Shown: positions 10,358 through 25,304 of the stretch, piece after piece | Numbering within the stretch: position 1 is the stretch's first letter | How the letters are laid out: every line of letters begins with the position of its first letter | Source: Bacteroidales bacterium | Lineage (GTDB): Bacteria; Bacteroidota; Bacteroidia; Bacteroidales; Tenuifilaceae | NCBI GenBank assembly: GCA_013376985.1 | Contig: JACABB010000006.1 | Span: 24,772-88,771 of the forward strand | Direction of reading: 5' to 3' | Length of the DNA stretch: 64,000 nucleotides | Notes under the pieces: generated by a model | Told to the model about the DNA's origin: nothing | The model's input: only the letters and a program-made list of their open reading frames with translations | Databases searched by the model: none | Program-made: the position numbers and the translations under genes

Positions 10358-13300
10358 TTATTTCCCTAAAGCCTTTTCGAATTCTTCATCAAAACGCTTC
10401 ATGATATAATTACAACCGTGTGTAAACATTTGTTCGCTAGTATCACTTTCTGTATAAACAAAATCAAACTTGGTTGGTTCATCATGAGCTGGAAGTAGCG
10501 ATAGTGCTTCAGCATTTGCTTCATGAATATCGCTAATACCATTTGAACCAAACTTTGAAAGAAGTTTAATTAGTTGCTCGACTGATGACACTTCAACTTT
10601 CAATTTCATTCCCGATTCAAAGACCTGAATCATTCGTTGCGTGTTGGTGAATGATCCGCCAGTTTCGAACCATAGCGATGCAGGAAGAATTAGATCGGCT
10701 TCTTTGGCTGTATCGCTCATGAATACATCTTGAACCATTTTAAAATTTGCCTTGCCAAAAATCTGTTCAATAGACTTTCTATTAACAGCGCAACCAATAG
10801 GATCTTCACCAAATATGAAGAGGTTTTTGAATTCGCCTTTCTCGAAACGTTCGGTAAAACACTCATCAATTACCTTTGGAAAATCATTAACACCCCATTT
10901 GCTCTTCATTTTTGTTATGAATTCAGCATTCGATAAATCCTGTAATCCAACACCAGTTTTTGGTCTAACGCCCATATCGAAGAGCCCGTGGGAATTATTT
11001 TTCTGTTTTAGGGAGATTATGCCGCTAGATGTTTTTCCTAGTTTACCAGTAATCATTGCTAAATTGATAATCTCGCGTGCAGCATCTGCGCCAACCTCTT
11101 TTTCGCTGAATATTAATATTGCATTCATCTCGTTGTTAAACGATTCTGCAAAATCGCTAACGCAGCTACAATTGCAATCACATTCACTGTAACAAGCCTG
11201 ACCGCATAATTTTTTATAATCCTCCTTCAGCAAATTCTTTTTATAATCCTCATAACCTATGCAATTATCTTTAATGAACATGCTATTCTGCTTGCCATTG
11301 GCTATTAAGTAGTGGTTAACTGCCTTGATGAAAAGATGATAGGATTTTACTGTGTTAAATGAAAAGGCTTTGTGCTTTAAGGTACTCTTTGGATTTGTGG
11401 AAATTACTTCTAAACGTTTTTGAACAGCATTTACCATATAACCAGCCACAGCATTATCGCGGTTTATCTCAGAACCAAGTAGATAAATAGCAGAAGCCCC
11501 GCTGATAGCGTCAAAAGGAACATTACTATCAGAATCTGTTGTAAAGCCTTTTGCTCCTCCTAAATAATGGAAACTGTTAACGTTATTGGTTTTAGCACCA
11601 ACACGAGCTAGTTTCTGGACAAGGTATTGTTCCTCATTGGTTAACCCAGCTCCTGCAAAGAATGCGTTTTGATCTGGTTTAACAGATTTTATTTTCTCTG
11701 AGATAATATCAAATGCTTTTTCGAAACTAATCTCTTCAAACTTTCCATTGACTTTATGAAGAGGCTTTGTGATTCTTGATTTATCGTTGATAAAGCGATA
11801 ACCAAACTTACCATACATACAAAGATTTCCTTCCTTATTCACCATTCCCTCTGCACCAGTTACCTTCATAACATAGCCAGCACGATGATGGAATGTGAGT
11901 TTACATCCTACAGAACAGTATCCACAAATAGTTTCGAATGTCTCTAGCTTAACAGGTCCCGGTTTAAATGGAACATTCTCGGTGATTGCTCCTGTAGGAC
12001 AAGCAGATATACACATTCCGCACGATTCACATTTTGTATCTTGCAATTTATCTCCAAATGCTGGTGCAACATAGGTGTCGAAACCACGCTTAACAAGAGT
12101 TAAGGCGTTAGCACCAACAACCTCCTTGCAAATCCTCACGCAGCGTGAGCAAAGAATACATTTGTTATTATCAATTTCGATATATGGATGGGCTATATTC
12201 AGTTGGAATTCCTTATGTTCACCAATAAATCTCTTTTGATCGGCTTTATAAGTATCTGCATGTTTCTTTAAATCGCAATCAAAATAGGCAACACAGCCAC
12301 ATTCTAAACAACGACTTGTTTCATTCAAGGTTTGTGCTTCGGAATAGCCAAGTTCTACCTCTTTGAAATTAACCCTGCTATTGGGTTCCATAACAGGCAT
12401 CTCTTCTCTAATCTGGTTGCGATAGCGACCAATATATTCGTCCTTTTCCTGATTTTTAAAGTTGTCCCTTTTACTTAGAAACTCTTTGATGGGAGTTTCA
12501 ACCTTCTGTCCTGTCAAATAAAGATGGCAACTATGGGATGCCAAGCGTGCCTGAGCAACAGCTTCAATTAGCGTGGCAGGCCCTGTTACACCATCACCAG
12601 CAGCAAATACGGATGGAATTCCTGTTTGAAGAGTGTTTTTATCAGCATCAATATCTCCCCATTTAGTAGGTTTTAGTTGACCTCCCTTTGCATATTTATT
12701 GATATCATCAAGGAAATTAATCTCGGTTTTTTGACCAATTGCGGCAAGTATATAATCAACCTCAATATCAAATTCAGAGCCTTCAACTGGAACAGGCCTT
12801 CTTCTGCCCGAAGCATCGGGTTCGCCTAATCCCATACGAATTAGGGTCATGGATTTTAATTTTCCATTCTCATCCTTATTAACCCTAACTGGGTTTGTTA
12901 GAAAAAGATATTCAACCCCCTCAAGTTTTGATTCATGAATTTCAATTGGATTGGCTGGCATTTCAGCTTCAGAACGGCGATAAACCACCTTTACATCGGT
13001 GCTTTTGCAGCGGAGCGATGTGCGACAGCAGTCCATGGCTGTGTTTCCGCCACCAACTACAACTATTTTTTTCCCTGTGAAGTCGTAACGTTGACCAGTT
13101 ACCTCCATATTCCGAAGGAAATCTATTCCAGAGAAGACACCATCAGCATCCTCACCATCGCAACCAAGCAGGGTGCCTCGTTGCGAACCAATGGTTAGAA
13201 TAGTTGCATCATATTTTTCTGATATCTCTTTATAGCTAATGCTTTCGCCTAACTTTTTATTGTAAAAGATATTTGCACCTAATTCTGTTACGCAATCAGT

Positions 13301-14056
13301 CTCTTTTTGAATAATATCATTGGGCAAACGATACTCAGGAATACCATAACGTAACCAGCCCCCAGAGTGTGGTTGTGCCTCATATATATCGCATTGATGA
13401 CCTTTTTGTTGTAAAAAATAAGCACTTGATAAACCACCAGGGCCAGCACCAATAATTGCAACTTTTTTACCTGTTGATGGTGCAACCTCGGGTTTATAAT
13501 GATTTTTAGAAGACAGATCGGAGTCTGCTGCGAATCGTTTCATGTAGTCGATACCAACTCCAGTTCCCTCATCTAATAGATTTCGGCGACATGCAGCCTC
13601 GCAAGGGCGAACACAAACCCTACCACAAATTGAAGGTAGAGGGTTAGTTTGTTTTATCACCTTAACTGCCTCGCTGTATAGACCTTTTTCAATTAGCGAA
13701 ATATAGCCTTGAACATCAACACCAGCAGGGCAACGCTCACGACATGGAGCAACGCAATCGGCATAGTGGTTGCTCATTATCAGGTCGAGTGCGGTTTTCC
13801 GAGCCTTGTAAATTCTGTCATTATCAGTATTAATCTTCATCCCCTCGGCAATTCTTGTTGAACAGGAGGGTTGAAGGTTTTTATTTCCCTCAATCTCAAT
13901 TAAACATACATAGCAAGCAGAGAATGGCTCTAACCTTGGGTCGTTGCAAAGTGTTGGAATTTCAATACCGTGCCTTTTGGCAACATCAAGAATGTACTCT
14001 CCTTTTAAACCAGTGGTATTTTGTCCGTTAAGAACTATATTGATTTTGTCGCTCAT
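10358..14056 (-). CDS. Fusion iron-sulfur flavoprotein with a degenerate molybdopterin domain (NuoG/FdhA-like)
   Basis: This 1232-residue protein joins, in order: a plant-type [2Fe-2S] domain (C37, C48, C51, C65); a cysteine-rich Fer4_20-type segment (DCVAPCRERCPAG, about 100-150); a GltD/NfnB-like FAD and NAD(P) module (IIGAGPGGL near 203, VVVGGGNTAMD near 330); two [4Fe-4S] motifs (CILCSRCVRIC near 632 and CESCGMCISACP near 675); and a molybdopterin-oxidoreductase domain (CGYCSVGC near 710 to the end). At the position of the formate dehydrogenase Cys/Sec the sequence is NNVNSFHYLGG, so the catalytic ligand is absent. An unusual insert near 949-966 holds six cysteines. It is last in an operon with NuoF- and NuoE-like genes and probably relays electrons between NAD(P)H and ferredoxin or another partner. 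Formate dehydrogenase activity is unlikely. Confidence 0.85.
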   Translation of the reverse strand: MSDKINIVLNGQNTTGLKGEYILDVAKRHGIEIPTLCNDPRLEPFSACYVCLIEIEGNKNLQPSCSTRIAEGMKINTDNDRIYKARKTALDLIMSNHYADCVAPCRERCPAGVDVQGYISLIEKGLYSEAVKVIKQTNPLPSICGRVCVRPCEAACRRNLLDEGTGVGIDYMKRFAADSDLSSKNHYKPEVAPSTGKKVAIIGAGPGGLSSAYFLQQKGHQCDIYEAQPHSGGWLRYGIPEYRLPNDIIQKETDCVTELGANIFYNKKLGESISYKEISEKYDATILTIGSQRGTLLGCDGEDADGVFSGIDFLRNMEVTGQRYDFTGKKIVVVGGGNTAMDCCRTSLRCKSTDVKVVYRRSEAEMPANPIEIHESKLEGVEYLFLTNPVRVNKDENGKLKSMTLIRMGLGEPDASGRRRPVPVEGSEFDIEVDYILAAIGQKTEINFLDDINKYAKGGQLKPTKWGDIDADKNTLQTGIPSVFAAGDGVTGPATLIEAVAQARLASHSCHLYLTGQKVETPIKEFLSKRDNFKNQEKDEYIGRYRNQIREEMPVMEPNSRVNFKEVELGYSEAQTLNETSRCLECGCVAYFDCDLKKHADTYKADQKRFIGEHKEFQLNIAHPYIEIDNNKCILCSRCVRICKEVVGANALTLVKRGFDTYVAPAFGDKLQDTKCESCGMCISACPTGAITENVPFKPGPVKLETFETICGYCSVGCKLTFHHRAGYVMKVTGAEGMVNKEGNLCMYGKFGYRFINDKSRITKPLHKVNGKFEEISFEKAFDIISEKIKSVKPDQNAFFAGAGLTNEEQYLVQKLARVGAKTNNVNSFHYLGGAKGFTTDSDSNVPFDAISGASAIYLLGSEINRDNAVAGYMVNAVQKRLEVISTNPKSTLKHKAFSFNTVKSYHLFIKAVNHYLIANGKQNSMFIKDNCIGYEDYKKNLLKEDYKKLCGQACYSECDCNCSCVSDFAESFNNEMNAILIFSEKEVGADAAREIINLAMITGKLGKTSSGIISLKQKNNSHGLFDMGVRPKTGVGLQDLSNAEFITKMKSKWGVNDFPKVIDECFTERFEKGEFKNLFIFGEDPIGCAVNRKSIEQIFGKANFKMVQDVFMSDTAKEADLILPASLWFETGGSFTNTQRMIQVFESGMKLKVEVSSVEQLIKLLSKFGSNGISDIHEANAEALSLLPAHDEPTKFDFVYTESDTSEQMFTHGCNYIMKRFDEEFEKALGK

Positions 14057-14086
14057 ATTCGTTGTCAGTTGAAAGTTTGTAAATCA

Positions 14087-15865
14087 TTAAGAAACACTAA
14101 TTGCACCGAACTTACAGCGTGAGTAGCAATCACCGCAACGGATGCACTTTTCCTGATGAATGAAGTGAACTTTTTTCTTTTCACCCTCAATAGCCTTAAC
14201 AGGACATTTAATTCCACAAACCATGCAACCAGTACATTTATCGGGAAGAATTTGGTAGGTGAGAAGTTGCTTGCAACTTAATGCAGGGCACTTTTTATCG
14301 CGGATGTGCGCTTCATACTCATTCCTAAAATACTTAATTGTTGTGAGCACTGGATTTGGTGCTGTTTGTCCTAATCCGCATAACGTACTATCCTTGATTT
14401 GAGCAGCTAACTCTTCGAGTGTTTCAATATCGCCTTCAACGCCTTTCCCTTCGGTTAAACGGGTAAGTATTTCGAGCATACGCTTTGTTCCGATACGACA
14501 GAAGGTACATTTTCCGCAAGATTCTTTTTGTGTGAAATCAAGGAAGAATCTTGCCATATCAACCATACATGTTGTTTCGTCCATTACAACCATACCACCA
14601 GAACCCATTATGGCACCAGTTGCATTAACTTGGTCATAATCAATTTGTAAGTCTGCAAGGTGTTTTGGAATACATCCGCCCGATGGACCACCCATCTGAA
14701 CAGCCTTAAACTCCTTGTTGTCTTGAATCCCACCGCCAAGTTTGTAGATAATATCTTTGAGGGTAATACCCATGGGGACTTCAACAAGTCCACCGTGTTT
14801 GATTTTGCCTGTTAGAGCAAACACCTTAGTACCCTTACTCTTCTCAGTGCCATACTTGTTGTATGAGCCAGCACCGTTGTAAACGATATATGGGATATTT
14901 GCAAATGTCTCAACGTTGTTGATGTTTGAAGGTTTTCTCCAAAGACCCGATTCTGCTGGAAAAGGTGGTCGTTTGGTTGGCATACCCCGCTTCCCTTCGA
15001 TGGATTGCATTAGTGCGGTTTCTTCGCCACATACAAATGCACCAGCTCCCTCTTTTACATAGATATCAAGGTTGAATCCTTGTATTCCACAAATGTTTTC
15101 GCCTAAATATCCTTTTTTTCTTGCCTGATCCAAAGCGATATTTAGACGTTTAATGGCTAGCGGATATTCGGCACGGCAATATATTACACCATGATTTGCA
15201 CCAATTGCGTAAGCACCAATAATCATCCCTTCAATAACTGCATGAGGATCACCTTCAAGAAGTGAACGATCCATAAAAGCTCCTGGGTCGCCTTCATCGG
15301 CATTACAAATAATATACTTATCATCGGATTTGCTGCTACGTGCAAATCGCCATTTTAAACCGGTTGGGAAACCTCCGCCTCCCCTACCACGCAAACCAGA
15401 ATCGAGAACAGTTTGGATTACATGTTCGAAAGGTAATTTTTCAGAAGCAATTTTCTTAATTGCCTTATATCCATCTCGAACTTCATACTCTTCAATGCTT
15501 TCGGGATCAATATATCCGCAATTACGAAGTGCAATTTTTACCTGACCTTCAAAATAAGCTTTATCGGGTGTATCAAAAAGATCAGTTTTAACTACGTAAT
15601 CTTTGATGGGATTAAAACCGATAACATGCTGTTGAATAATTTCAACTGCTTTATCTTCTGTTACATCCCCGTATATAAAGGAACCAGTATCATCAATAAC
15701 CTCTACCAAGGGTTCTCGATAGCACATACCGATACAGCTGGTTTTTCTAAGTTCGAAATCAATTTTCTCAGCCTCTTGTAAGGCTTTGATTTTGTTATAA
15801 ACCTTGTTGGCTCCAGCAGCAATTCCACAGCTACCTAAACCGACTATAACTTTTGTTTTTGCCAT
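14087..15865 (-). CDS. NuoF/HydB-like NADH-binding flavo-iron-sulfur subunit
   Basis: The 592-residue protein has the layout of HydB/NuoF subunits of NADH-linked soluble oxidoreductases: an N-terminal thioredoxin-like [2Fe-2S] domain (about 1-90, TSCIGMCYREP), the FMN/NADH domain (GRGGGGFPTG near 159, NADEGDPGAFMDR), an SLBB domain, the 51-kDa iron-sulfur motif (ESCGKCTFC near 446, TLCGLGQ), and a C-terminal pair of [4Fe-4S] motifs (CTGCMVCGIKCP and CIRCGDCYSRCK, about 543-588). It oxidises or forms NADH and passes electrons to the fusion protein encoded 30 bases downstream. This multi-cluster layout is found in electron-bifurcating complexes, but bifurcation cannot be proved from sequence. 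Confidence 0.9.
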   Translation of the reverse strand: MAKTKVIVGLGSCGIAAGANKVYNKIKALQEAEKIDFELRKTSCIGMCYREPLVEVIDDTGSFIYGDVTEDKAVEIIQQHVIGFNPIKDYVVKTDLFDTPDKAYFEGQVKIALRNCGYIDPESIEEYEVRDGYKAIKKIASEKLPFEHVIQTVLDSGLRGRGGGGFPTGLKWRFARSSKSDDKYIICNADEGDPGAFMDRSLLEGDPHAVIEGMIIGAYAIGANHGVIYCRAEYPLAIKRLNIALDQARKKGYLGENICGIQGFNLDIYVKEGAGAFVCGEETALMQSIEGKRGMPTKRPPFPAESGLWRKPSNINNVETFANIPYIVYNGAGSYNKYGTEKSKGTKVFALTGKIKHGGLVEVPMGITLKDIIYKLGGGIQDNKEFKAVQMGGPSGGCIPKHLADLQIDYDQVNATGAIMGSGGMVVMDETTCMVDMARFFLDFTQKESCGKCTFCRIGTKRMLEILTRLTEGKGVEGDIETLEELAAQIKDSTLCGLGQTAPNPVLTTIKYFRNEYEAHIRDKKCPALSCKQLLTYQILPDKCTGCMVCGIKCPVKAIEGEKKKVHFIHQEKCIRCGDCYSRCKFGAISVS

Positions 15866-15947
15866 TAAATATACTCTTTTGTAGTAAAGTAGCGGTTTGT
15901 TAAAGTGTTGAGGTAAAGTCGAAACACTTAATACAAAACACTAAACA

Positions 15948-16475
15948 CTAATTGCTTTGGCTTTCCTTAATTTTAATATCCTTGATAATTTTTACGGCAG
16001 AATTGCCTGTGAGCTTGCCATATGCTTCATCGCCTATCATCATAACAGGAGCAAGGGAGCAGCACCCAAGACAGGCAACCGATTCGAGGGTAAACATTTT
16101 GTCTTCGGTAGTTTCTCCATCCTTTACATTTAATGCTTCTTTAATTGCATCGGAGATTGCATCGGCATTTTGAACGTGACAAGCAGTTCCATGGCAAACT
16201 TTTATAATATATTTGCCTACAGGTGCGAGTCTGAACTGTGCATAGAATGTAGCTACTCCATACATGTCGCTGAGACTAATGCCCGATACCTTTGATATTT
16301 TATCAAATGCCTCCCGTGGGATATAGCCAAACATTTCCTGAGTACCTTGTAAAAGTGGAATAAGACTACCTTTTTTGCCTTTATACTTGTCAAGTAAAGG
16401 CTCTAGCAGGTTAACATTTATGGGTTCCTCCTTGGCGGTTGGCTTTGATTCAGGTTGGAGTCTTTGTATGCGCAT
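15948..16475 (-). CDS. NuoE/HydC-like thioredoxin-fold [2Fe-2S] subunit
   Basis: The 175-residue product matches the 24-kDa subunit of NADH dehydrogenases: a helical N-terminal part (LIPLLQGTQEMFGYIP), then a thioredoxin-like domain with four [2Fe-2S] ligands in CHGTACHVQ and CLGCCSLAP. It pairs with the NuoF-like subunit encoded 82 bases downstream. It is the first gene of the operon, and a 12-base palindrome lies 35-62 bases before its ATG. The first 20 residues are variable and rich in charged residues. Confidence 0.9.
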   Translation of the reverse strand: MRIQRLQPESKPTAKEEPINVNLLEPLLDKYKGKKGSLIPLLQGTQEMFGYIPREAFDKISKVSGISLSDMYGVATFYAQFRLAPVGKYIIKVCHGTACHVQNADAISDAIKEALNVKDGETTEDKMFTLESVACLGCCSLAPVMMIGDEAYGKLTGNSAVKIIKDIKIKESQSN

Positions 16476-16668: not shown

Positions 16669-18024
16669 TTAAACAGCTCCTTGATCAATCATTGAGTTGG
16701 CTACTTTAACGAATCCGCCGATGTTAGCTCCATCAACGTAGTTAATATAACCATCCTCTTTTGTACCATATTTCTTACATGTTTCGTGAATGTCGATCAT
16801 AATCTGATGTAATCTTTGATCAACCTCTTCGCGTGTCCATGATAAACGAAGTGAGTTTTGTGACATTTCAAGACCAGATGTTGCAACTCCACCAGCGTTA
16901 GCTGCTTTACCAGGGCCGAATAAAATCTTATTCTTAATGTAAACTTCAACAGCTTCAGGAGTTGATGGCATATTTGCACCTTCTGAAACGCAATAGCAAC
17001 CATTCTTAACAAGAATCTTAGCTTCTTCGCCGTTGATTTCGTTTTGAGTTGCGCTTGGTAAAGCTACATCACACTTGATACCCCATGGACGCTCACCTGG
17101 GAAATAATCACATTTAAACTTATCTGCATATTCTTTAATACGGCCACGTTTCTCATTCTTTAGCCACATTACGAATTGTAATTTTTCAGCATCAATACCT
17201 TTTGGATCATAGATAAATCCTTCAGAATCTGAAAGGGTAACGCATTTTCCACCAAACTCGTTAACTTTTTCAACGGTGTATTGAGCAACGTTTCCTGAAC
17301 CAGAAACTGTAACTACTTTACCTTTAAAGCTCTCACCACGAGTTTTTAGCATTTCTTGTGCAAAATATACATTGCCATAACCAGTTGCTTCTGGACGAAT
17401 TAATGAACCACCCCAAAGTCTACCTTTTCCTGTAAGAACGCCAGTAAACTCATTACGGATACGTTTATATTGACCAAACATGTAACCAATTTCACGACCA
17501 CCTACTCCTATATCACCAGCTGGAACGTCAGTGTCAGGGCCAATATGACGGCAAAGTTCAGTCATAAAGCTTTGGCAGAAACGCATTACTTCTTTATCTG
17601 ATTTTCCTTTAGGATCAAAATCAGAACCACCTTTACCACCACCCATAGGTAGAGTAGTTAAGCTATTTTTGAAAACTTGTTCAAAAGCAAGGAATTTCAA
17701 AATACCAAGGTTTACAGTTGGATGGAAACGTAATCCACCTTTGTAAGGTCCAATTGCGCTATTCATTTCAATACGGAAACCACGGTTTACTTGAATTTCA
17801 CCTTTATCATCAATCCAAGGTACTCTAAACATTAATACTCTTTCTGGCTCAGTAATTCTCTCAAGAATCTTTTCGTTATAATATACTGGATTCTCCTCCA
17901 TGTAAGGAATAATACTTTCAATTACTTCCCTAACTGCTTGATGGAATTCAAGTTCAGAAGGATTCTTAGCCACTACCTGGGCCATGAATTTGTTAACTTT
18001 TTGCTCAATAGCTTGGTTCTTCAT
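16669..18024 (-). CDS. gdhA: Glutamate dehydrogenase, hexameric class
   Basis: The 451-residue enzyme interconverts glutamate and 2-oxoglutarate plus ammonia in the cytoplasm. It has the family's usual length, the catalytic-lysine segment (PMGGGKGGSDFDPKG), GDIGVGGREIGYMFGQYKR, and the dinucleotide-binding turn VSGSGNVAQY. The sequence type is that of small hexameric enzymes, usually NADP-specific, although Bacteroidota also carry dual-specificity members. A strong terminator follows it and the upstream neighbour diverges, so it is probably a single transcription unit. Confidence 0.95.
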   Translation of the reverse strand: MKNQAIEQKVNKFMAQVVAKNPSELEFHQAVREVIESIIPYMEENPVYYNEKILERITEPERVLMFRVPWIDDKGEIQVNRGFRIEMNSAIGPYKGGLRFHPTVNLGILKFLAFEQVFKNSLTTLPMGGGKGGSDFDPKGKSDKEVMRFCQSFMTELCRHIGPDTDVPAGDIGVGGREIGYMFGQYKRIRNEFTGVLTGKGRLWGGSLIRPEATGYGNVYFAQEMLKTRGESFKGKVVTVSGSGNVAQYTVEKVNEFGGKCVTLSDSEGFIYDPKGIDAEKLQFVMWLKNEKRGRIKEYADKFKCDYFPGERPWGIKCDVALPSATQNEINGEEAKILVKNGCYCVSEGANMPSTPEAVEVYIKNKILFGPGKAANAGGVATSGLEMSQNSLRLSWTREEVDQRLHQIMIDIHETCKKYGTKEDGYINYVDGANIGGFVKVANSMIDQGAV

Positions 18025-18292
18025 AATGTGTTAATTTAGTTAGAAATTTTATTGTTAAATAAAAGGTGTTATGAGTTAAATTGCAGTTGAAAGTTAGCCT
18101 AAAAAAGATTTCAAAGTACGAAAGTGTCTTAAATCCAGTTATGTACTGACAAGGTTGTTAGGCGATCCACTTAGAGAATCTCCGAGTTTTACTTATTTTT
18201 ACCATTATGAGTTGTTGAAGCAGAAAAATGCTGCTAAATTGAAGCGATTTGATGTGTTTCTTTTATTAATTTTCTATTTTAACTTCTTACCT

Positions 18293-21200
18293 ATGCCTCA
18301 GAAACCTATTGCAAACCCCGAAGATTTTTATAAGCTATTGGCTCAGAGTAAGGAAAGACTAAAGGAGCTAGCTGCAATCAATCAAGCTATTTCTATTATT
18401 AAGGAAGGAAAATCAATACAAGATACACTGCACCAGCTATGTTTAATATTGCCTGATGCATGGCAATTCCCAGGGCATACAATTGTTAGGATAAAGTATG
18501 GTCAATACGAATTCCAATCATCTGGATTTAGGGAAACCCCTTGGTGTCAAAAACAGGATTTTGAAACAATTGATGGAGGTTTTGGATTTATTGAGGTTTA
18601 CTATACACAGGAATTTCCATCCGAATTTGAAGGCCCTTTCTTGAAAGAAGAGCGAGATCTTATTAATAATATTACCAATATTTTAACAGGTTACTTAAAT
18701 AGTATTAAAGGTAAGGATATTATTCGTGAAATTAAGATAACTCAAAAACGTAAACCAGAAGGAGAGGCATCTACAAGTAAAAGACTTCTACAAAGATTTA
18801 TAAACCAGCACAATGCTGACAGAGATATTTATCATGATTTGATGCCCTTTAAGGTTACGGAGATATTGCTGATTTCAACCCTTTACGATGCATATAGTAT
18901 AGAAAAAGAGGATAGATTAACAGATAATATTCTTGGTGAATACTCGAAACTCAGCCTTTCAACGGTTCCACGTATCACGGGTGTTTCTAATCTTGAGGAA
19001 GCGCTTGAAAAACTTGATGAGAAGTATTTCAACATGATTATCATCATGATGGGAGCAGATACTCAGACACCTCTTGAGATGAGCAAGAAAATCAAGAGTG
19101 AGTACAGCTATATCCCTTTATATTTACTTGTCAACAATAGCGTAATTGTTAATGAGATGGAAAAAAACCCGGTAACCATCTCAAGTATCGATAGAGTTTT
19201 CGTTTGGAATGGAGAACCAAAGGTCTTCTTTACCATGATTAAACTTTTAGAGGATCGAGTTAATATTGAGAATGATACACGGATTGCTTTAACCAGAGTT
19301 ATTCTACTTGTTGAAGATTCTCCAAAGTACTACTCCCGATATCTCCCTTTACTATATAGTAGTGTGCTCGAACAAACAAAGCGGATAATAGAGGATGTTA
19401 GTACGGATGATTTGTATAAAGTATTAAGAATTAGAATTCGACCTAAAATTATTCTTGCAGGAACCTATGAGGAGGCGATTGATCTTTTTACAAGATACAA
19501 GAATTACATGCTTTGCTTAATTTCCGATGTGAAATTTTATAAAAACAATATTCTTGATGAAAATGCAGGAGTTCATCTGGTTGCACATGTAAGAAAAGAA
19601 CTACCTAATTTGCCAATTATTATCCAATCATACGAACAGGATAAGGAGGAAATGGCATTTAAGCTAAAAGCTGCATTCCTAAATAAGAATTCTGAGATAT
19701 TGATGCAGGAAATAAAGAATTTCTTGAGCAACTTCCTTGGATTTGGCGACTTTGTTTTTAGAGATTCTTTGGGAAACCCATTAACTATTGCATCAACCAT
19801 GGAAGAGTTTGAAAGAGCTCTTAGGATAATTCCGGATGAGAGTCTCTTATTCCATTCCCAGAAAAACCACTTTTCCATGTGGCTTGCTGCACGTGGCGAG
19901 ATTCAGGTAGCCAGAATTATTAACCCATCTACAATTGAAGACTTTACTAGTTCAGAGGAGATTAGAGAATATCTCTTAAATACCTTGAAAAAATATAGGC
20001 AGGAGAAGCGCAGAGGGAAAATCGTTGGCTTTGATACAGCATGGGAAGTGGATGAGAGCAATATTGTTAGCCTTGCTGAAGGCTCTTTTGGGGGAAAAGG
20101 TAGAGGCTTATCATTTATCAATACTCTAATTTATACTTTTGATATATCACAGTATACCCCCAATATCAATCTTAGGACACCTCGTACATCAATTATTGGT
20201 ACTAGCGAGTACGAGTGTTTTATGATGAAAAACGGGTTGTACGAAAAGATTTTTGCATCATCAAGTTATTTTGAGATACAAAGACATTTTTTGGAAGGAG
20301 AACTATCCGATCAATTAAAAATCAGATTAGACAGGCTTTTACAAATATATCATAGACCACTGGCAGTGAGGTCATCAGGTTTGCTTGAAGATTCAATAAT
20401 GCAGCCATTTGCGGGTATCTTCCAAACTTATATTGTACCCAACAACCATCCCGATAAGCATGTTCGTTTGAAACAGGCAATGGATGCTATTAAATTAGTA
20501 TATGCATCTGTTTTCTCTGATACAGCACGTGCGTATATAAAAGCCATAAATTATAAGATTGAGGATGAGCGCATGGCGGTTATTATTCAAGAGGTTGTTG
20601 GTAATACCTATGGAAACTACTATTACCCGCATATAAGTGGTGTTGCACAATCCTATAACTACTATCCATTCGGGCATATTCAACCCGAGGATGGATTTGC
20701 TAATATGGCGGTTGGCCTTGGGAAATATGTTGTTGAAGGCGAAAGATCTTACCGATTTTGTCCTAAATATCCTAGTATTATTAATTACTCCAATGCCGAT
20801 TTGATAAAAAACTCCCAGGTTGAGTTCTTTGCAGTCGATCTATCAAAACACAATATCAACCTGTTCGAAGGTGAAGAGGCTGGGCTTGCACGTCTAAATC
20901 TGTATGAGTCCGAACAGCATGGCACCCTTAAACACAGCGCTTCGGTTTTTAACCCCGAAAATAATTCGCTAACGCCTGGCTTAGGGCAACCTGGTCCAAG
21001 AGTGGTAAACTTTGCTAATATTCTTAAGTATAATTATGCTCCATTGGCTCAGTCAATTCAGGTTATTCTGGATGTTGTGAAAGAGGCTTTGGGCGCAGCA
21101 TGTGAAATAGAGTTTGCAGTAGATCTAAATAGGGATACGAACTACAAATCCTCATTTTTCTTGTTGCAAATAAAACCAATGCTTGGTAATACTCAGGAAT

Positions 21201-21739
21201 ATAAAGTAAATCTTGATTCTGTTGATATGAGCAAGGTAATTCTTATGTCGAAGAATGGCATGGGAAATGGGTATATCAATACAATCTCAGATGTTGTTTA
21301 TATAAAGCGTGAATCATTCGATAAATCGATGACTCCTGAGATGGCTCTTGAAATAAACTCAATCAATAATAAGCTAATTGAACAAAATAGGCGCTGCATT
21401 CTGATTGGCCCTGGACGATGGGGAAGTCGTGATAGGTGGATTGGAATTCCTGTTACATGGCCACAAATATCGCAGGCGAAAATTATTGTTGAAACAAGTT
21501 TTGAGGACTTTCCGTTGGATGCATCATATGGTTCACATTTTTTCCACAACGTAATCTCAATGAATGTGGGCTATTGTTCTGTTCAGGATGGAGATCCCAA
21601 AACTAAAATTGCTTGGGATACACTTAATGGTATGCCTGCTGTAAATGAAACAAAGTTTTTCAGGCATGTTCAACTCCCAAAACCATTGATTGTTAGGATG
21701 GATGGAAGACAGAGGTTGATAGTTGCAAGTATTGAATAA
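18293..21739 (+). CDS. GAF / pseudo-receiver / receiver / PEP-synthase-type ATP-grasp protein
   Basis: This protein is 1148 residues from the ATG at 18293; an in-frame upstream start at 18155 would add 46 residues that look non-coding. In order it has a GAF-like domain (about 20-150), a receiver-like fold whose phospho-acceptor Asp is replaced (IIIMMGAD), a second receiver with conserved landmarks (LLVEDSP near 336, Asp near 412 in LISDVKF, AFLNKNSE), a linker, and a PEP-synthase/PPDK N-terminal ATP-grasp domain (GGKGRGLSF near 599, AVRSSGLLEDS near 692, EIEFAVD and LLQIKPM). The end carries a conserved block, GPGRWGSRDRW, near 1035. The swivelling phospho-histidine and PEP-binding barrel domains of PEP synthase are absent. 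The substrate is unknown; I infer a signalling or regulatory phosphotransfer role. A paralogue follows at 22314. Confidence 0.85.
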   Translation: MPQKPIANPEDFYKLLAQSKERLKELAAINQAISIIKEGKSIQDTLHQLCLILPDAWQFPGHTIVRIKYGQYEFQSSGFRETPWCQKQDFETIDGGFGFIEVYYTQEFPSEFEGPFLKEERDLINNITNILTGYLNSIKGKDIIREIKITQKRKPEGEASTSKRLLQRFINQHNADRDIYHDLMPFKVTEILLISTLYDAYSIEKEDRLTDNILGEYSKLSLSTVPRITGVSNLEEALEKLDEKYFNMIIIMMGADTQTPLEMSKKIKSEYSYIPLYLLVNNSVIVNEMEKNPVTISSIDRVFVWNGEPKVFFTMIKLLEDRVNIENDTRIALTRVILLVEDSPKYYSRYLPLLYSSVLEQTKRIIEDVSTDDLYKVLRIRIRPKIILAGTYEEAIDLFTRYKNYMLCLISDVKFYKNNILDENAGVHLVAHVRKELPNLPIIIQSYEQDKEEMAFKLKAAFLNKNSEILMQEIKNFLSNFLGFGDFVFRDSLGNPLTIASTMEEFERALRIIPDESLLFHSQKNHFSMWLAARGEIQVARIINPSTIEDFTSSEEIREYLLNTLKKYRQEKRRGKIVGFDTAWEVDESNIVSLAEGSFGGKGRGLSFINTLIYTFDISQYTPNINLRTPRTSIIGTSEYECFMMKNGLYEKIFASSSYFEIQRHFLEGELSDQLKIRLDRLLQIYHRPLAVRSSGLLEDSIMQPFAGIFQTYIVPNNHPDKHVRLKQAMDAIKLVYASVFSDTARAYIKAINYKIEDERMAVIIQEVVGNTYGNYYYPHISGVAQSYNYYPFGHIQPEDGFANMAVGLGKYVVEGERSYRFCPKYPSIINYSNADLIKNSQVEFFAVDLSKHNINLFEGEEAGLARLNLYESEQHGTLKHSASVFNPENNSLTPGLGQPGPRVVNFANILKYNYAPLAQSIQVILDVVKEALGAACEIEFAVDLNRDTNYKSSFFLLQIKPMLGNTQEYKVNLDSVDMSKVILMSKNGMGNGYINTISDVVYIKRESFDKSMTPEMALEINSINNKLIEQNRRCILIGPGRWGSRDRWIGIPVTWPQISQAKIIVETSFEDFPLDASYGSHFFHNVISMNVGYCSVQDGDPKTKIAWDTLNGMPAVNETKFFRHVQLPKPLIVRMDGRQRLIVASIE

Positions 21740-21745
21740 TATATT

Positions 21746-21777
21746 TTCACCACAATAGACACAATAGGACACATTAG
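21746..21777. repeat. Left arm of inverted repeat around the GxxExxY gene
   Basis: This 32-base sequence (begins TTCACCACAATAG, ends GACACATTAG) is the reverse complement of 22255-22286 with 30 of 32 bases matching. It starts 7 bases after the stop of the upstream gene and ends 3 bases before the ATG of the broken GxxExxY gene. A direct, diverged copy lies at 22205-22236. Confidence 0.8.
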
Positions 21778-21779
21778 AA

Positions 21780-22186
21780 ATGACGCAGAAATATATAAAC
21801 GATTTAACTCATTCAATAATAGGCTCTGCAATTGAGGTTCACAAAGAGATTGGTACTGGACTACTAGAGAGTGTTTATGAGAAATGTTTGACTCATTTAT
21901 TAAAAAAGAAAGAATACAAATTAGATATTCAACAAAAAGTTCCGTTAAAATTCAGAGGTTTATGCCTTGATTGTGATTTGACATATTGGTTGAAGATCTT
22001 GTTATAGTTGAACTAAAATCAATTGAAATGCTTTTGCCAATCCATGAAGCACAACTATTAACTTATTTAAAACTTCTGGAGAAACCAAAAGGTATCTTGT
22101 TGAATTTTAACTGTACAAATATTTTTAAAGAAGGACAAAAAACATTGATTACTAATATTTATGCTAATCTCCCAAAGGGTTATTAG
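21780..22186 (+). pseudogene. GxxExxY protein (PDDEXK-like), frameshifted
   Basis: Two adjacent frames together give a near-complete GxxExxY protein of about 130 residues. The first (21780-22007) has the family motif GTGLLESVYEKCL; the second resumes near 21990 with LVEDLVIVELKSIE, the nuclease-like core, and runs to the TAA at 22184-22186. The frame shifts near 21980-21990, where the sequence reads DCDLTYW rather than continuing into LVEDLV, so one or two bases were lost or gained. GxxExxY proteins are small PDDEXK-fold proteins of uncertain function common in Bacteroidota. The gene sits within a palindromic repeat and may have moved with it. A sequencing error is an alternative. Confidence 0.8.
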
Positions 22187-22204
22187 TGAATAAGACTAAT
22201 ATAT

Positions 22205-22286
22205 TTCATGACAATAGACACATTAGAACACAATAGAGAGAAGGGGATAAAAAACTAATGTGACCTAGTGTGTCTATTGTGGTGAA
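22205..22286. repeat. Palindromic repeat downstream of the GxxExxY gene
   Basis: The left part (22205-22236, containing GACAATAGACACATTAG) and the right part (22255-22286, ending TCTATTGTGGTGAA) form an imperfect hairpin around an 18-base spacer. The right part also pairs with 21746-21777 on the other side of the gene (30 of 32 bases). The repeat family recurs without a gene at 25309-25379. Confidence 0.8.
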
Positions 22287-22313
22287 TTTTAAAGAATTTA
22301 AAATCGCATTGCC

Positions 22314-25304
22314 ATGGAAAATAAGCCCAATGATTTAAAAGAAGGCAAATACTACTTTGCCGAGACGGCATTCGATTTGTTGATGAAAAAGCAGATTAAG
22401 AGTGTTCTACTAATTTGTAGCAAGTATGATGCTTTCATGCTCGAGGAGGATGGTAGGATAGAGGAGCAGATCTTTAATGAATATGTTTCGCTCAACCTTC
22501 GTTATCCTCCAGTATTTTATCAAGCAACATCGGCAGAGGAAGCTTTCTCAATATTAAAGAAACAGTACATAGACCTCGTTATTACTATGCTTAATGTTGA
22601 GGGCATGGATACCTTTACTTTGGCTACAAACATTAAGAATTTATACCCTCAGAAACCAATTGTAGTACTTACTCCTTTTTCACGGGAGGTATCGCTTAAG
22701 TTGAGTAAGGTAGATCTTTGGGCTGTAGATTATGTTTTTGCATGGCTTGGTAATGCACGTATAATGCTTGCAATTGTTAAGCTGATTGAGGATAGCCTAA
22801 ATGTTGAGCATGATGTTAATGAAGTTGGGGTTCAGGTTATTTTACTTGTTGAGGATTCGGTGCGATTTTACTCTAGCTATTTGCCCCATCTATATAACAT
22901 AATTTACACACAGAGTAAAGAATTTATGTCCGAAGGCCTTAATGAACATCAGAAGATGATGAGATTAAGAGGGCAACCTAAAATTCTTCTTGCCGAAAAT
23001 TATGATCAAGCAGTTGAGCTATACGAGAAGTATAAAAATAACCTATTAGGTGTAATAACCGATATGAGTTACCCGCTAAGCGGAAAAATGGAACAACGTG
23101 CTGGTGTTAAACTTATTGAAAAAATAAAAGGGGATAATCCTTTTTTGCCAATTTTGCTACAATCGTCCGATATAAATAATCGCTTAATTGCAAAGCAGGT
23201 TAAAGTCGGATTTCTTCATAAATATTCAAAAACATTATCGCTTGAACTTCGCGATTTTGTGGTTAAGTACCTAGCTTTTGGTGATTTTATATTTATTGAT
23301 CCCGATACAGGAGCAGAAATCTTTAGAGCAACAGACTTAAAATCTTTACAAGATTTAATATTTCAGGTTCCCGAGTCATCACTCGAATATCATATTCGTC
23401 GGAATCATATCTCTAAATGGCTTACGGCAAGGGCTCTATTCCCAATTGCTGAAATCTTTAAATATTTTGTTCCAGAGGACTTTAACAATTTTGATGAGAT
23501 TCGCAGGTTTATTTTCGATACAATTGACCGTTATCGCCAGAGTAAAGGGCGGGGTATAATTTCAAAATTCTACCGAGATCGGTACGATGAGTACCAGATT
23601 TTTTCGCGTATAGGCGATGGTTCAATGGGAGGCAAAGGCCGTGGCCTTGCATTTATCGATTCCGTGATTAAACGTAACTATCTAATGCATAAGTTCGAGG
23701 GGATTACGCTAACTATTCCTCGAACGGTAGTACTCTGCACAGATATTTTTGATGAATTCATGGAGATCAATAATCTCTACTCCGTTGCTATGTCCGATAT
23801 AAGCAACGAGGAGATGCTCCGACATTTTCTTAAGGCGCAGATCCCTTCGCGTATACATAAAGATTTATTCTCCTTTATATCTGTTGCAAAGAACCCTATT
23901 GCTATTCGCTCCTCGAGTTTGTTGGAGGATTCCCATTACCAGCCATTTGCTGGAATCTATTCAACATACATGATTCCAATTCTGCACGAGAATGAACATC
24001 AAATGATTGAAATCCTTGGGCAAGCCATTAAGTGCGTTTATGCATCCGTTTACTATAAGGAGAGTAAAGCGTACATGCAAGCAACACAAAATGTTATTGA
24101 TGAGGAACGGATGGCTGTTGTTTTGCAGGAAGTTGTTGGTTCAACCTATGAACATAGATTTTACCCAACAATATCTGGCGTTGGACGATCTTTAAACTTT
24201 TACCCTATTGAGCCCGAAAAACCATCGGATGGGATTGTTAGCGTTGCACTTGGGTTGGGGAAACATGTTGTTGAGGGGAAACCTAGCTTGCGTTTTTCAC
24301 CTAAATATCCAAAAAAATTATTCCAACTCTCTATTCCTGAGATGGCATTAAAGGAGACCCAGAAGACATTTCTTGCCCTCGATTTAAGAGCATCCAGTTT
24401 TGTTCCATCAACCGATGATGGTATAAATTTGCTCGAATTGGATGTGAGAGAAGCGTATCCCGATGGTTCGCTGGCATTACTTGCATCAACATTTGATTAT
24501 GATGGACAACAAATACGTGAAGGATACAGCGGACAAGGCATGCCAATTATTTCTTTTTCGGGAGTCCTTCGACATAAGCAATTTCCGCTTGCTGAAATTT
24601 TAGAAACACTTCTGAAACTTGGCGAACATGAGATGAATACGCCAGTTGAGATTGAATTTGCTGTTAATCTCAACACTCCTGTGGGGCAGCCAAAACTTTT
24701 TAGTTTTTTACAAATTAGACCAATTGTACAAAATAGGGAACTGGTAAATATTGATGTTGATAATTTTAAGAAAGAGGATCTGATTCTCTTCTCGGATTCA
24801 TCGCTTGGAAATGGGCAAGTACAGGATATATGTGATGTTGTATATATCAAGCCAAAGAGTTTTGACTCTTCCAAAACCTGCGAAATGGCAGAGGTAATCG
24901 ATGAGATTAATCAAAAATTTGTACTTGAAGGTAAACCCTACATCCTAATTGGCCCAGGTCGATGGGGTTCTGTTGATAGATGGTTAGGAATACCCGTTAA
25001 ATGGTCGCAAATATCGGGTGCAAAGCTAATAGTTGAGGCAGGGCAGGAGAACTACAGGATTGATCCAAGTCAGGGAACACACTTTTTTCAAAACTTAACC
25101 TCTTTTAGGGTTGGTTATATTACTGTTAATCCCTATATAAATCAGGGATATTTAGATTTCGATTATCTGGATAGTATTCCAGCAATTTTTGAGGATAATT
25201 ATATTAGGCACATTCGTTTCGAAGATCCTGTGGATGTAATTATTAATGGGCAAAACCGTAAGGCAGTTGTGCTTAAGAGAACAGGAGTTGTTAGGGATAA
25301 ATGA
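22314..25304 (+). CDS. Pseudo-receiver / receiver / PEP-synthase-type ATP-grasp protein, paralogue 2
   Basis: This 996-residue paralogue of the protein at 18293 lacks the GAF domain but is otherwise colinear. The first receiver-like fold (about 30-150) has VITMLNVEGMD where an Asp is expected. The second keeps LLVEDS (near 178), an acceptor Asp near 249 in ITDMSYP, and a lysine in GFLHKYS. The ATP-grasp domain shows GGKGRGLAF (near 440), AIRSSSLLEDS (near 532), DERMAVVLQEVVG, EIEFAVN and FLQIRPI, so ATP-binding residues look intact. The C-terminal block GPGRWGSVDRWLGIPV (near 880) and GTHFFQN match the paralogue. No phospho-histidine or PEP-binding domain follows. The two genes lie on one strand but are separated by 574 bases, so joint transcription is uncertain. 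Confidence 0.85.
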   Translation: MENKPNDLKEGKYYFAETAFDLLMKKQIKSVLLICSKYDAFMLEEDGRIEEQIFNEYVSLNLRYPPVFYQATSAEEAFSILKKQYIDLVITMLNVEGMDTFTLATNIKNLYPQKPIVVLTPFSREVSLKLSKVDLWAVDYVFAWLGNARIMLAIVKLIEDSLNVEHDVNEVGVQVILLVEDSVRFYSSYLPHLYNIIYTQSKEFMSEGLNEHQKMMRLRGQPKILLAENYDQAVELYEKYKNNLLGVITDMSYPLSGKMEQRAGVKLIEKIKGDNPFLPILLQSSDINNRLIAKQVKVGFLHKYSKTLSLELRDFVVKYLAFGDFIFIDPDTGAEIFRATDLKSLQDLIFQVPESSLEYHIRRNHISKWLTARALFPIAEIFKYFVPEDFNNFDEIRRFIFDTIDRYRQSKGRGIISKFYRDRYDEYQIFSRIGDGSMGGKGRGLAFIDSVIKRNYLMHKFEGITLTIPRTVVLCTDIFDEFMEINNLYSVAMSDISNEEMLRHFLKAQIPSRIHKDLFSFISVAKNPIAIRSSSLLEDSHYQPFAGIYSTYMIPILHENEHQMIEILGQAIKCVYASVYYKESKAYMQATQNVIDEERMAVVLQEVVGSTYEHRFYPTISGVGRSLNFYPIEPEKPSDGIVSVALGLGKHVVEGKPSLRFSPKYPKKLFQLSIPEMALKETQKTFLALDLRASSFVPSTDDGINLLELDVREAYPDGSLALLASTFDYDGQQIREGYSGQGMPIISFSGVLRHKQFPLAEILETLLKLGEHEMNTPVEIEFAVNLNTPVGQPKLFSFLQIRPIVQNRELVNIDVDNFKKEDLILFSDSSLGNGQVQDICDVVYIKPKSFDSSKTCEMAEVIDEINQKFVLEGKPYILIGPGRWGSVDRWLGIPVKWSQISGAKLIVEAGQENYRIDPSQGTHFFQNLTSFRVGYITVNPYINQGYLDFDYLDSIPAIFEDNYIRHIRFEDPVDVIINGQNRKAVVLKRTGVVRDK

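Follow-up and report, generated by a model that had tools for sequence, protein, structure and literature searches.

Covalent regulators of nitrogen enzymes are known from GlnE and GlnD and, for glutamate dehydrogenase (GDH), from GarA-PknG. GDH is a main entry point of ammonia in the bacteria considered here, gut commensals among them. A different type of phosphotransfer is found in PEP synthase (PpsA) and PPDK, which combine an ATP-grasp domain, a swivelling domain whose histidine is phosphorylated from ATP and a barrel that binds PEP or pyruvate. The swivelling domain of PPDK spans residues 380-515 with H456 as its histidine (PMC5371819), while that of rifampin phosphotransferase (RPH), a rearranged small-molecule enzyme of the same superfamily, spans residues 767-865 with His825 (PMC4844700).

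The window, i.e. the whole 64,000 nucleotide stretch of Bacteroidales DNA that was analysed, encodes two long proteins that the original prediction had presented as paralogues forming a candidate undescribed signalling system. Both ORFs were found on the plus strand and their products share 37% identity, confirming their paralogy. The two genes and their upstream neighbours are as follows:

10358..14056, minus strand, oxidoreductase of 1232 aa, a fusion of GltD-like, NuoG-like and formate dehydrogenase-like portions
14087..15865, minus strand, NuoF-like subunit
15948..16475, minus strand, NuoE-like 2Fe-2S subunit, the next gene after gdhA
16669..18024, minus strand, gdhA, NADP-specific glutamate dehydrogenase (NF006929, 769 bits)
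18293..21739, plus strand, protein 1, 1148 aa (ORF call)
22314..25304, plus strand, protein 2, 996 aa (ORF call)

The length of protein 1 is counted from an ATG, and its open frame extends upstream to a TTG at 18155. A third paralogue, encoded on a different contig of the source genome, is 56% identical to protein 2. The intergenic gap between proteins 1 and 2 measures 574 bp, compared with about 30 bp in a relative (L006), and contains a decayed, frameshifted PF13366 (PDDEXK_3) fragment (21780-22007, E 1.5e-14). This fragment is bracketed by a 32-nt inverted repeat of 94% complementarity (21746-21777 and 22255-22286), an extra direct copy of which is also present, and the content of the gap from 21746 to 22286 looks like a small inserted element. 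No Rfam RNA or tRNA was found within the window.

Protein 1 is composed of an N-terminal sensor-like domain, a degenerate receiver, an intact receiver, a linker, a PPDK_N-type ATP-grasp domain and a divergent swivelling His domain, and protein 2 follows the same order from the degenerate receiver onwards. Pfam recognises only the ATP-grasp domain and receivers in the two proteins, besides a weak match to DUF5752 in the linker. The domains are placed as follows:

18293..18802, plus strand, N-terminal sensor-like domain of protein 1, conserved and without Pfam or PDB match
19295..19747, plus strand, receiver 2 of protein 1, intact pocket (E341 D342, D412, S446, K465)
20084..21208, plus strand, ATP-grasp domain of protein 1, residues 598-972 (PPDK_N, E 6.3e-35)
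21218..21736, plus strand, predicted divergent swivelling domain of protein 1, assigned through its homology with the protein 2 model, with H1082 (codon 21536-21538) as the catalytic candidate
22395..22793, plus strand, receiver 1 of protein 2, degenerate, with M92 at the phospho-Asp position
22830..23288, plus strand, receiver 2 of protein 2, intact (E180 D181, D250, S284, K303)
23622..24740, plus strand, ATP-grasp domain of protein 2, residues 437-809 (PPDK_N, E 4.7e-38; structure match)
24750..25280, plus strand, predicted divergent swivelling domain of protein 2, with H923 (codon 25080-25082) as the catalytic candidate

The PPDK_N matches of the two ATP-grasp domains lie far beyond the Pfam cut-off, as anticipated from the proposed PEP synthase-type N-terminal domain, and the ATP-binding landmarks, which had been judged intact, hold up in a careful alignment: G439-G440-K441-R443, R532-S533-S534, E779/E781 and Q800-x2-P803 (protein 2 numbering) are invariant in 91 of 91 homologues. 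The top structural match of the protein 2 ATP-grasp model is RPH (5hv1, Z 26.3), and HpeI, a stand-alone ATP-grasp component, is also among the matches to the protein 2 model.

The region that follows requires a revision, as the original prediction held that neither protein has a phospho-histidine swivelling domain. The C-terminal domain, about 180 residues long in both proteins and bearing the motifs GPGRWGS and GTHFFxN in protein 2, is on predicted structure best matched by domains of this kind and is structurally a divergent form of them. The full-length model of protein 2 (pLDDT 85) aligns over residues 418-989 with PEP synthase (2ols; Z 25.9, rmsd 3.6, 326 aligned) and over the same range with several PPDKs (1dik included), which carries the alignment well beyond the end of the ATP-grasp domain near residue 806. 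Modelled alone (pLDDT 89), the C-terminal domain of protein 2 yields seven best VIA matches that are all of the swivelling type, namely the pyruvate kinase C' domain (2e28, Z 6.7), PPDK 371-515 (5jvn, Z 6.6), RPH 755-867 (Z 6.6), more PPDK and RPH chains, and Enzyme I (Z 5.7), and the aligned ranges in RPH and PPDK span the published swivelling domains. These Z scores (6.7 to 5.7) are modest, all below 8, and Foldseek returned no match below E 0.001 for the lone domain, so that the assignment leans on the agreement of three facts: the fold ranking, a location immediately after the ATP-grasp domain and a histidine that never varies. The last of these is the GxHFF histidine (H923 in protein 2, H1082 in protein 1), which is retained in 91 of 91 homologues and, as H923, also in distant paralogues of 1027-1070 aa; in the predicted structure H923, part of GxHFFxN, lies where the appropriate helix for a candidate catalytic histidine begins. 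The Pfam swivelling model PF00391 does not match the C-terminal domain, its only match in the source genome being the PPDK, and profile-profile alignment of the family with PPDK and PEP-utiliser sequences gave no useful match, the ATP-grasp part included; thus the His-domain claim rests on structure. Of the proposed comparison by HMM and structure, Pfam bore out the ATP-grasp domain, while the supposedly missing swivelling domain was supported by structure only. The absence of the PEP-binding barrel stands, with no Pfam match at E values up to 1 and a chain that ends after the His domain. Relative to the PEP synthase/PPDK plan it is only the acceptor (PEP/pyruvate) domain that is missing.

The receiver-like domains are present as predicted, with an intact pocket in receiver 2, but the loss of the phospho-Asp from receiver 1 had gone unnoticed. 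Its place is taken by methionine or another non-acidic residue in all 91 homologues, whereas E180, D250, S284 and K303 of receiver 2 are kept in every one of them. The Pfam receiver match is above the cut-off in protein 2 and below it in protein 1, and residues 172-326 of the protein 2 model align with receiver structures with VIA Z scores of up to 15.8. The N-terminal domain of protein 1 had been taken for an added GAF domain, an identification that found no confirmation, as neither Pfam nor PDB sequences produced a GAF match at E values up to 5. It is a conserved domain of about 160 aa that a profile search also detects in distant paralogues, with three copies in one homologue (L050, 2649-6929) and two in another (L038, 25-4107).

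A profile of the C-terminal domain detected family members in 49 of 296 genomes from a sample spanning the Bacteroidota. Among 148 genomes close to the window, which all belong to its order, 127 had the family. In a plasmid collection, full-length matches were confined to Bacteroidales, with additional ATP-grasp fragments from Deinococcus. Four architectures can be distinguished: proteins of about 1000 aa with two receivers, proteins of about 1150 aa with the additional N-terminal domain, a receiver-less core of 575-606 aa that adjoins GDH, and proteins of 1027-1070 aa that join the N-terminal domain of protein 1 (profile E 1e-23 to 1e-32) to the core. Genes for the proteins of about 590 and 1065 aa overlap or abut in the same direction. 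Most of the 1027-1070 aa paralogues end in a GSx10DxD nucleotidyltransferase motif, of the type used by GlnD and GlnE to modify nitrogen-metabolism proteins, and this suggests that nucleotidylation may serve as a second regulatory chemistry in these paralogues. The motif is canonical, GSxxNAxxxPxSDIDL, where it terminates the GDH-linked proteins of about 1065 aa at six loci (L089, L090, L093, L094, L095 and L096) and is lost at a further one (L098). Two Bacteroidales loci (L057 and L058, 2-3916) carry a 379-391 aa piece and a 911-913 aa protein of the 590 plus 1065 aa kind a few kb upstream of a receiver type, so the two kinds coexist. At four loci (L086, L091, L092 and L103) two GDH/family pairs flank genes for a PAS histidine kinase and for a response regulator of the LuxR type; these genes were checked by Pfam for L086, L103 and part of L092, and by gene order for L091.

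It had been suggested that the two proteins act together, with conservation of the pair across the Bacteroidota as a test. Two-gene pairing is indeed common in the wider phylum, but the case for an obligate pair is weak in relatives: the protein 1 type adjoins a 996 aa type in 10 of the 35 cases listed from 69 related genomes, and the 996 aa type is solitary in many genomes. The conserved neighbour that had been missed is GDH. In the window gdhA is oriented divergently from protein 1, 268 bp upstream of it, while the third paralogue forms a KorA-KorB-paralogue 3-GDH array on one strand; thus both full-length GDHs of the source genome adjoin a family gene, and a third, weak ELFV match does not. 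Across the phylum, GDH lies within 6 kb of 70 of the 85 family genes from 49 genomes, where about 0.7 would be expected by chance, and 67 of these 70 linked GDHs are on the strand of the family gene. Among the matches listed for the 69 near relatives, GDH is found within 8 kb of at least 28 of 35 protein 1 types and is divergent in at least 25, both counts being lower bounds, and the contigs of the seven listed cases without a nearby GDH carry no GDH at all. For the 996 aa type the same distance captures GDH in 38 of the 75 genes listed, 28 times downstream on the same strand, and 32 of the 75 have no tested partner within 12 kb, which is partly owing to short contigs. In Parabacteroides distasonis a family gene divergent from gdhA is annotated only as 'PEP/pyruvate-binding domain-containing protein'.

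The linkage extends to the phylogeny of GDH itself. A branch with SH-aLRT 91 sets off the GDHs adjoining protein 1 types (21 rows), a clustering that none of 500 shuffles equalled, and those linked to 996 aa types fall elsewhere in the tree, so that in Bacteroidales each of the two GDH clades is matched with its own paralogue type. Links extend to GDH subfamilies at a greater distance, with about 30% identity. Copy numbers covary as well: two or more GDHs are present in 39 of the 45 genomes with at least two family genes compared with 4 of the 24 with one (Fisher p 1e-8, on complete match counts and treating genomes as independent of ancestry). GDH occurs in 117 of 118 family-positive genomes and is kept in 54 of 59 family-negative ones, and the dependence is therefore one-way. 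Proteins 1 and 2 would thus seem to be two switches working in parallel, each for its own GDH, that happen to lie side by side here. A search among GDHs revealed no residue that separates family-linked from unlinked enzymes, and so gives no sign of an acceptor site specific to GDH.

Family genes that lack an adjoining GDH often have KorAB (2-oxoacid:ferredoxin oxidoreductase) or NuoF/GltD-Fdh-like genes as neighbours, and homologues of the 1232 aa oxidoreductase adjoin family genes elsewhere too. The minus-strand genes from 10358 to 16475 may encode a complex linked to NAD(P)H/ferredoxin or to formate and coupled to the metabolism of glutamate. Bacteroides are reported to form glutamate from succinate by reductive carboxylation via 2-ketoglutarate:ferredoxin oxidoreductase (PMC11304471), and this could be the reason for a regulator common to KorAB and GDH. 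Overall, a functional tie of the family to GDH and the adjoining 2-oxoglutarate and electron-transfer enzymes is strongly supported.

It is proposed, with a probability of about 0.5, that these members of the PEP synthase/PPDK superfamily act as signalling phosphotransferases in the service of GDH and place the glutamate/2-oxoglutarate node under receiver-gated control. ATP would phosphorylate the histidine of the swivelling domain (H923/H1082), as it does in PEP synthase, and from there the mobile domain would pass the phosphoryl group on to another protein, most probably GDH itself or a complex of enzymes assembled with GDH. This transfer would be switched on or off by the phosphorylation of receiver 2, to which protein 1 would add the influence of its N-terminal sensor-like domain, and the outcome would be a reversible post-translational control of the flux between glutamate and 2-oxoglutarate. 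Phosphorylation-controlled phosphotransfer, as originally put forward, is still the best reading and is stronger than before because the swivelling His domain is present; the acceptor, which had been left unnamed, is narrowed towards GDH and the surrounding 2-oxoglutarate enzymes by the linkage, the pairing of each paralogue type with its own GDH clade and the copy-number covariation. The most specific form, in which a receiver-gated, ATP-grasp-driven phospho-histidine system reversibly phosphorylates GDH directly, perhaps together with a linked 2-oxoacid oxidoreductase, and so represents a new class of protein phosphotransferase, is tentative and on balance doubtful.

The phosphoryl group might instead stay within the family. 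The ATP-grasp/swivelling module would then act as a histidine kinase for D250 of its own or its partner's receiver, the receiver state would control binding to GDH, and the result would amount to a two-component system without a HATPase kinase. Transfer from phospho-His to Asp is the usual chemistry of receivers, and the conservation of the pocket in receiver 2 alongside a degenerate receiver 1 fits such a relay, which is nevertheless unlikely: the receiver-less core beside GDH means that the receiver cannot be the general acceptor, and several genomes of the phylum encode a classical histidine kinase and a LuxR-type response regulator between paired copies. It is similarly improbable that the ATP-grasp domain merely binds ATP or AMP as a sensor of energy charge or metabolites and regulates GDH by direct contact with no phosphate transfer. 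The strong GDH linkage, the lost small-molecule acceptor domain and the lack of an apparent acceptor site on GDH would suit such a regulator, but the invariance of H923 and the ATP-site residues over a wide divergence exceeds the needs of binding alone, and the swivelling-domain architecture is retained. A further reading is a dikinase in two parts, whose substrate would be a small molecule from the glutamate/2-oxoglutarate pathway and whose acceptor site would lie on a partner such as GDH. It has precedents in rearranged superfamily members such as RPH (PMC4844700) and in the stand-alone HpeI, and the neighbouring genes do encode enzymes of one pathway. Receivers, sensor-like domains and a nucleotidyltransferase fusion such as that of the paralogues are however typical of regulators, and many genomes have GDH but no family gene; this reading, too, is improbable. 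That the linkage reflects mere co-regulation or shared physiology of proteins acting on something unrelated to GDH, as the additional KorAB and NuoEF/GltD-Fdh-like neighbours might imply, is very unlikely given the several GDH subfamilies involved, the varied orientations, the clade-by-clade matching and the copy-number covariation.

No published function for the family, and no receiver-gated, acceptor-less dikinase coupled to GDH, was found in the open-access literature searched, which upholds its status as a candidate undescribed system. The chemistry is that of a known superfamily, and it is the combination of receiver gating, an acceptor-less dikinase and GDH coupling that this literature did not show, with a smaller chance that the family constitutes a new class of protein phosphotransfer. 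A dikinase-type phosphotransferase as a signalling output acting on a metabolic enzyme would add such a class to the histidine kinases, the Ser/Thr kinases and the PTS. The GDH linkage suggests an undescribed protein switch on the making or burning of glutamate in the Bacteroidota and, if this is true, it would offer a handle on the control of the glutamate/2-oxoglutarate node and of the nitrogen/carbon balance in Bacteroidales and other classes of the phylum.

In comparison with known systems, the family shares with GlnE/GlnD and GarA-PknG a proposed post-translational control of a nitrogen-assimilation enzyme and, in a distant paralogue, a nucleotidyltransferase motif, whereas its core is not homologous to them and its chemistry differs. 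Like two-component response regulators it has a receiver (receiver 2) with the full acidic pocket, Asp, Ser/Thr and Lys, but receiver 1 is degenerate and the output is an ATP-grasp phosphotransferase in place of a DNA-binding domain or a known signalling enzyme. RPH provides the top structural match of the ATP-grasp domain and one of the best of the swivelling domain, and is likewise a dikinase turned to a non-pyruvate acceptor; unlike the family, it carries a rifampin-binding domain between its ATP-grasp and His domains. In PEP synthase and PPDK, as in the family, the ATP-grasp domain leads straight into a swivelling domain whose histidine does not vary, and the fold matches over residues 418-989; the family differs in dispensing with the PEP/pyruvate barrel, in a swivelling domain that falls outside PF00391 and in the receivers placed in front.
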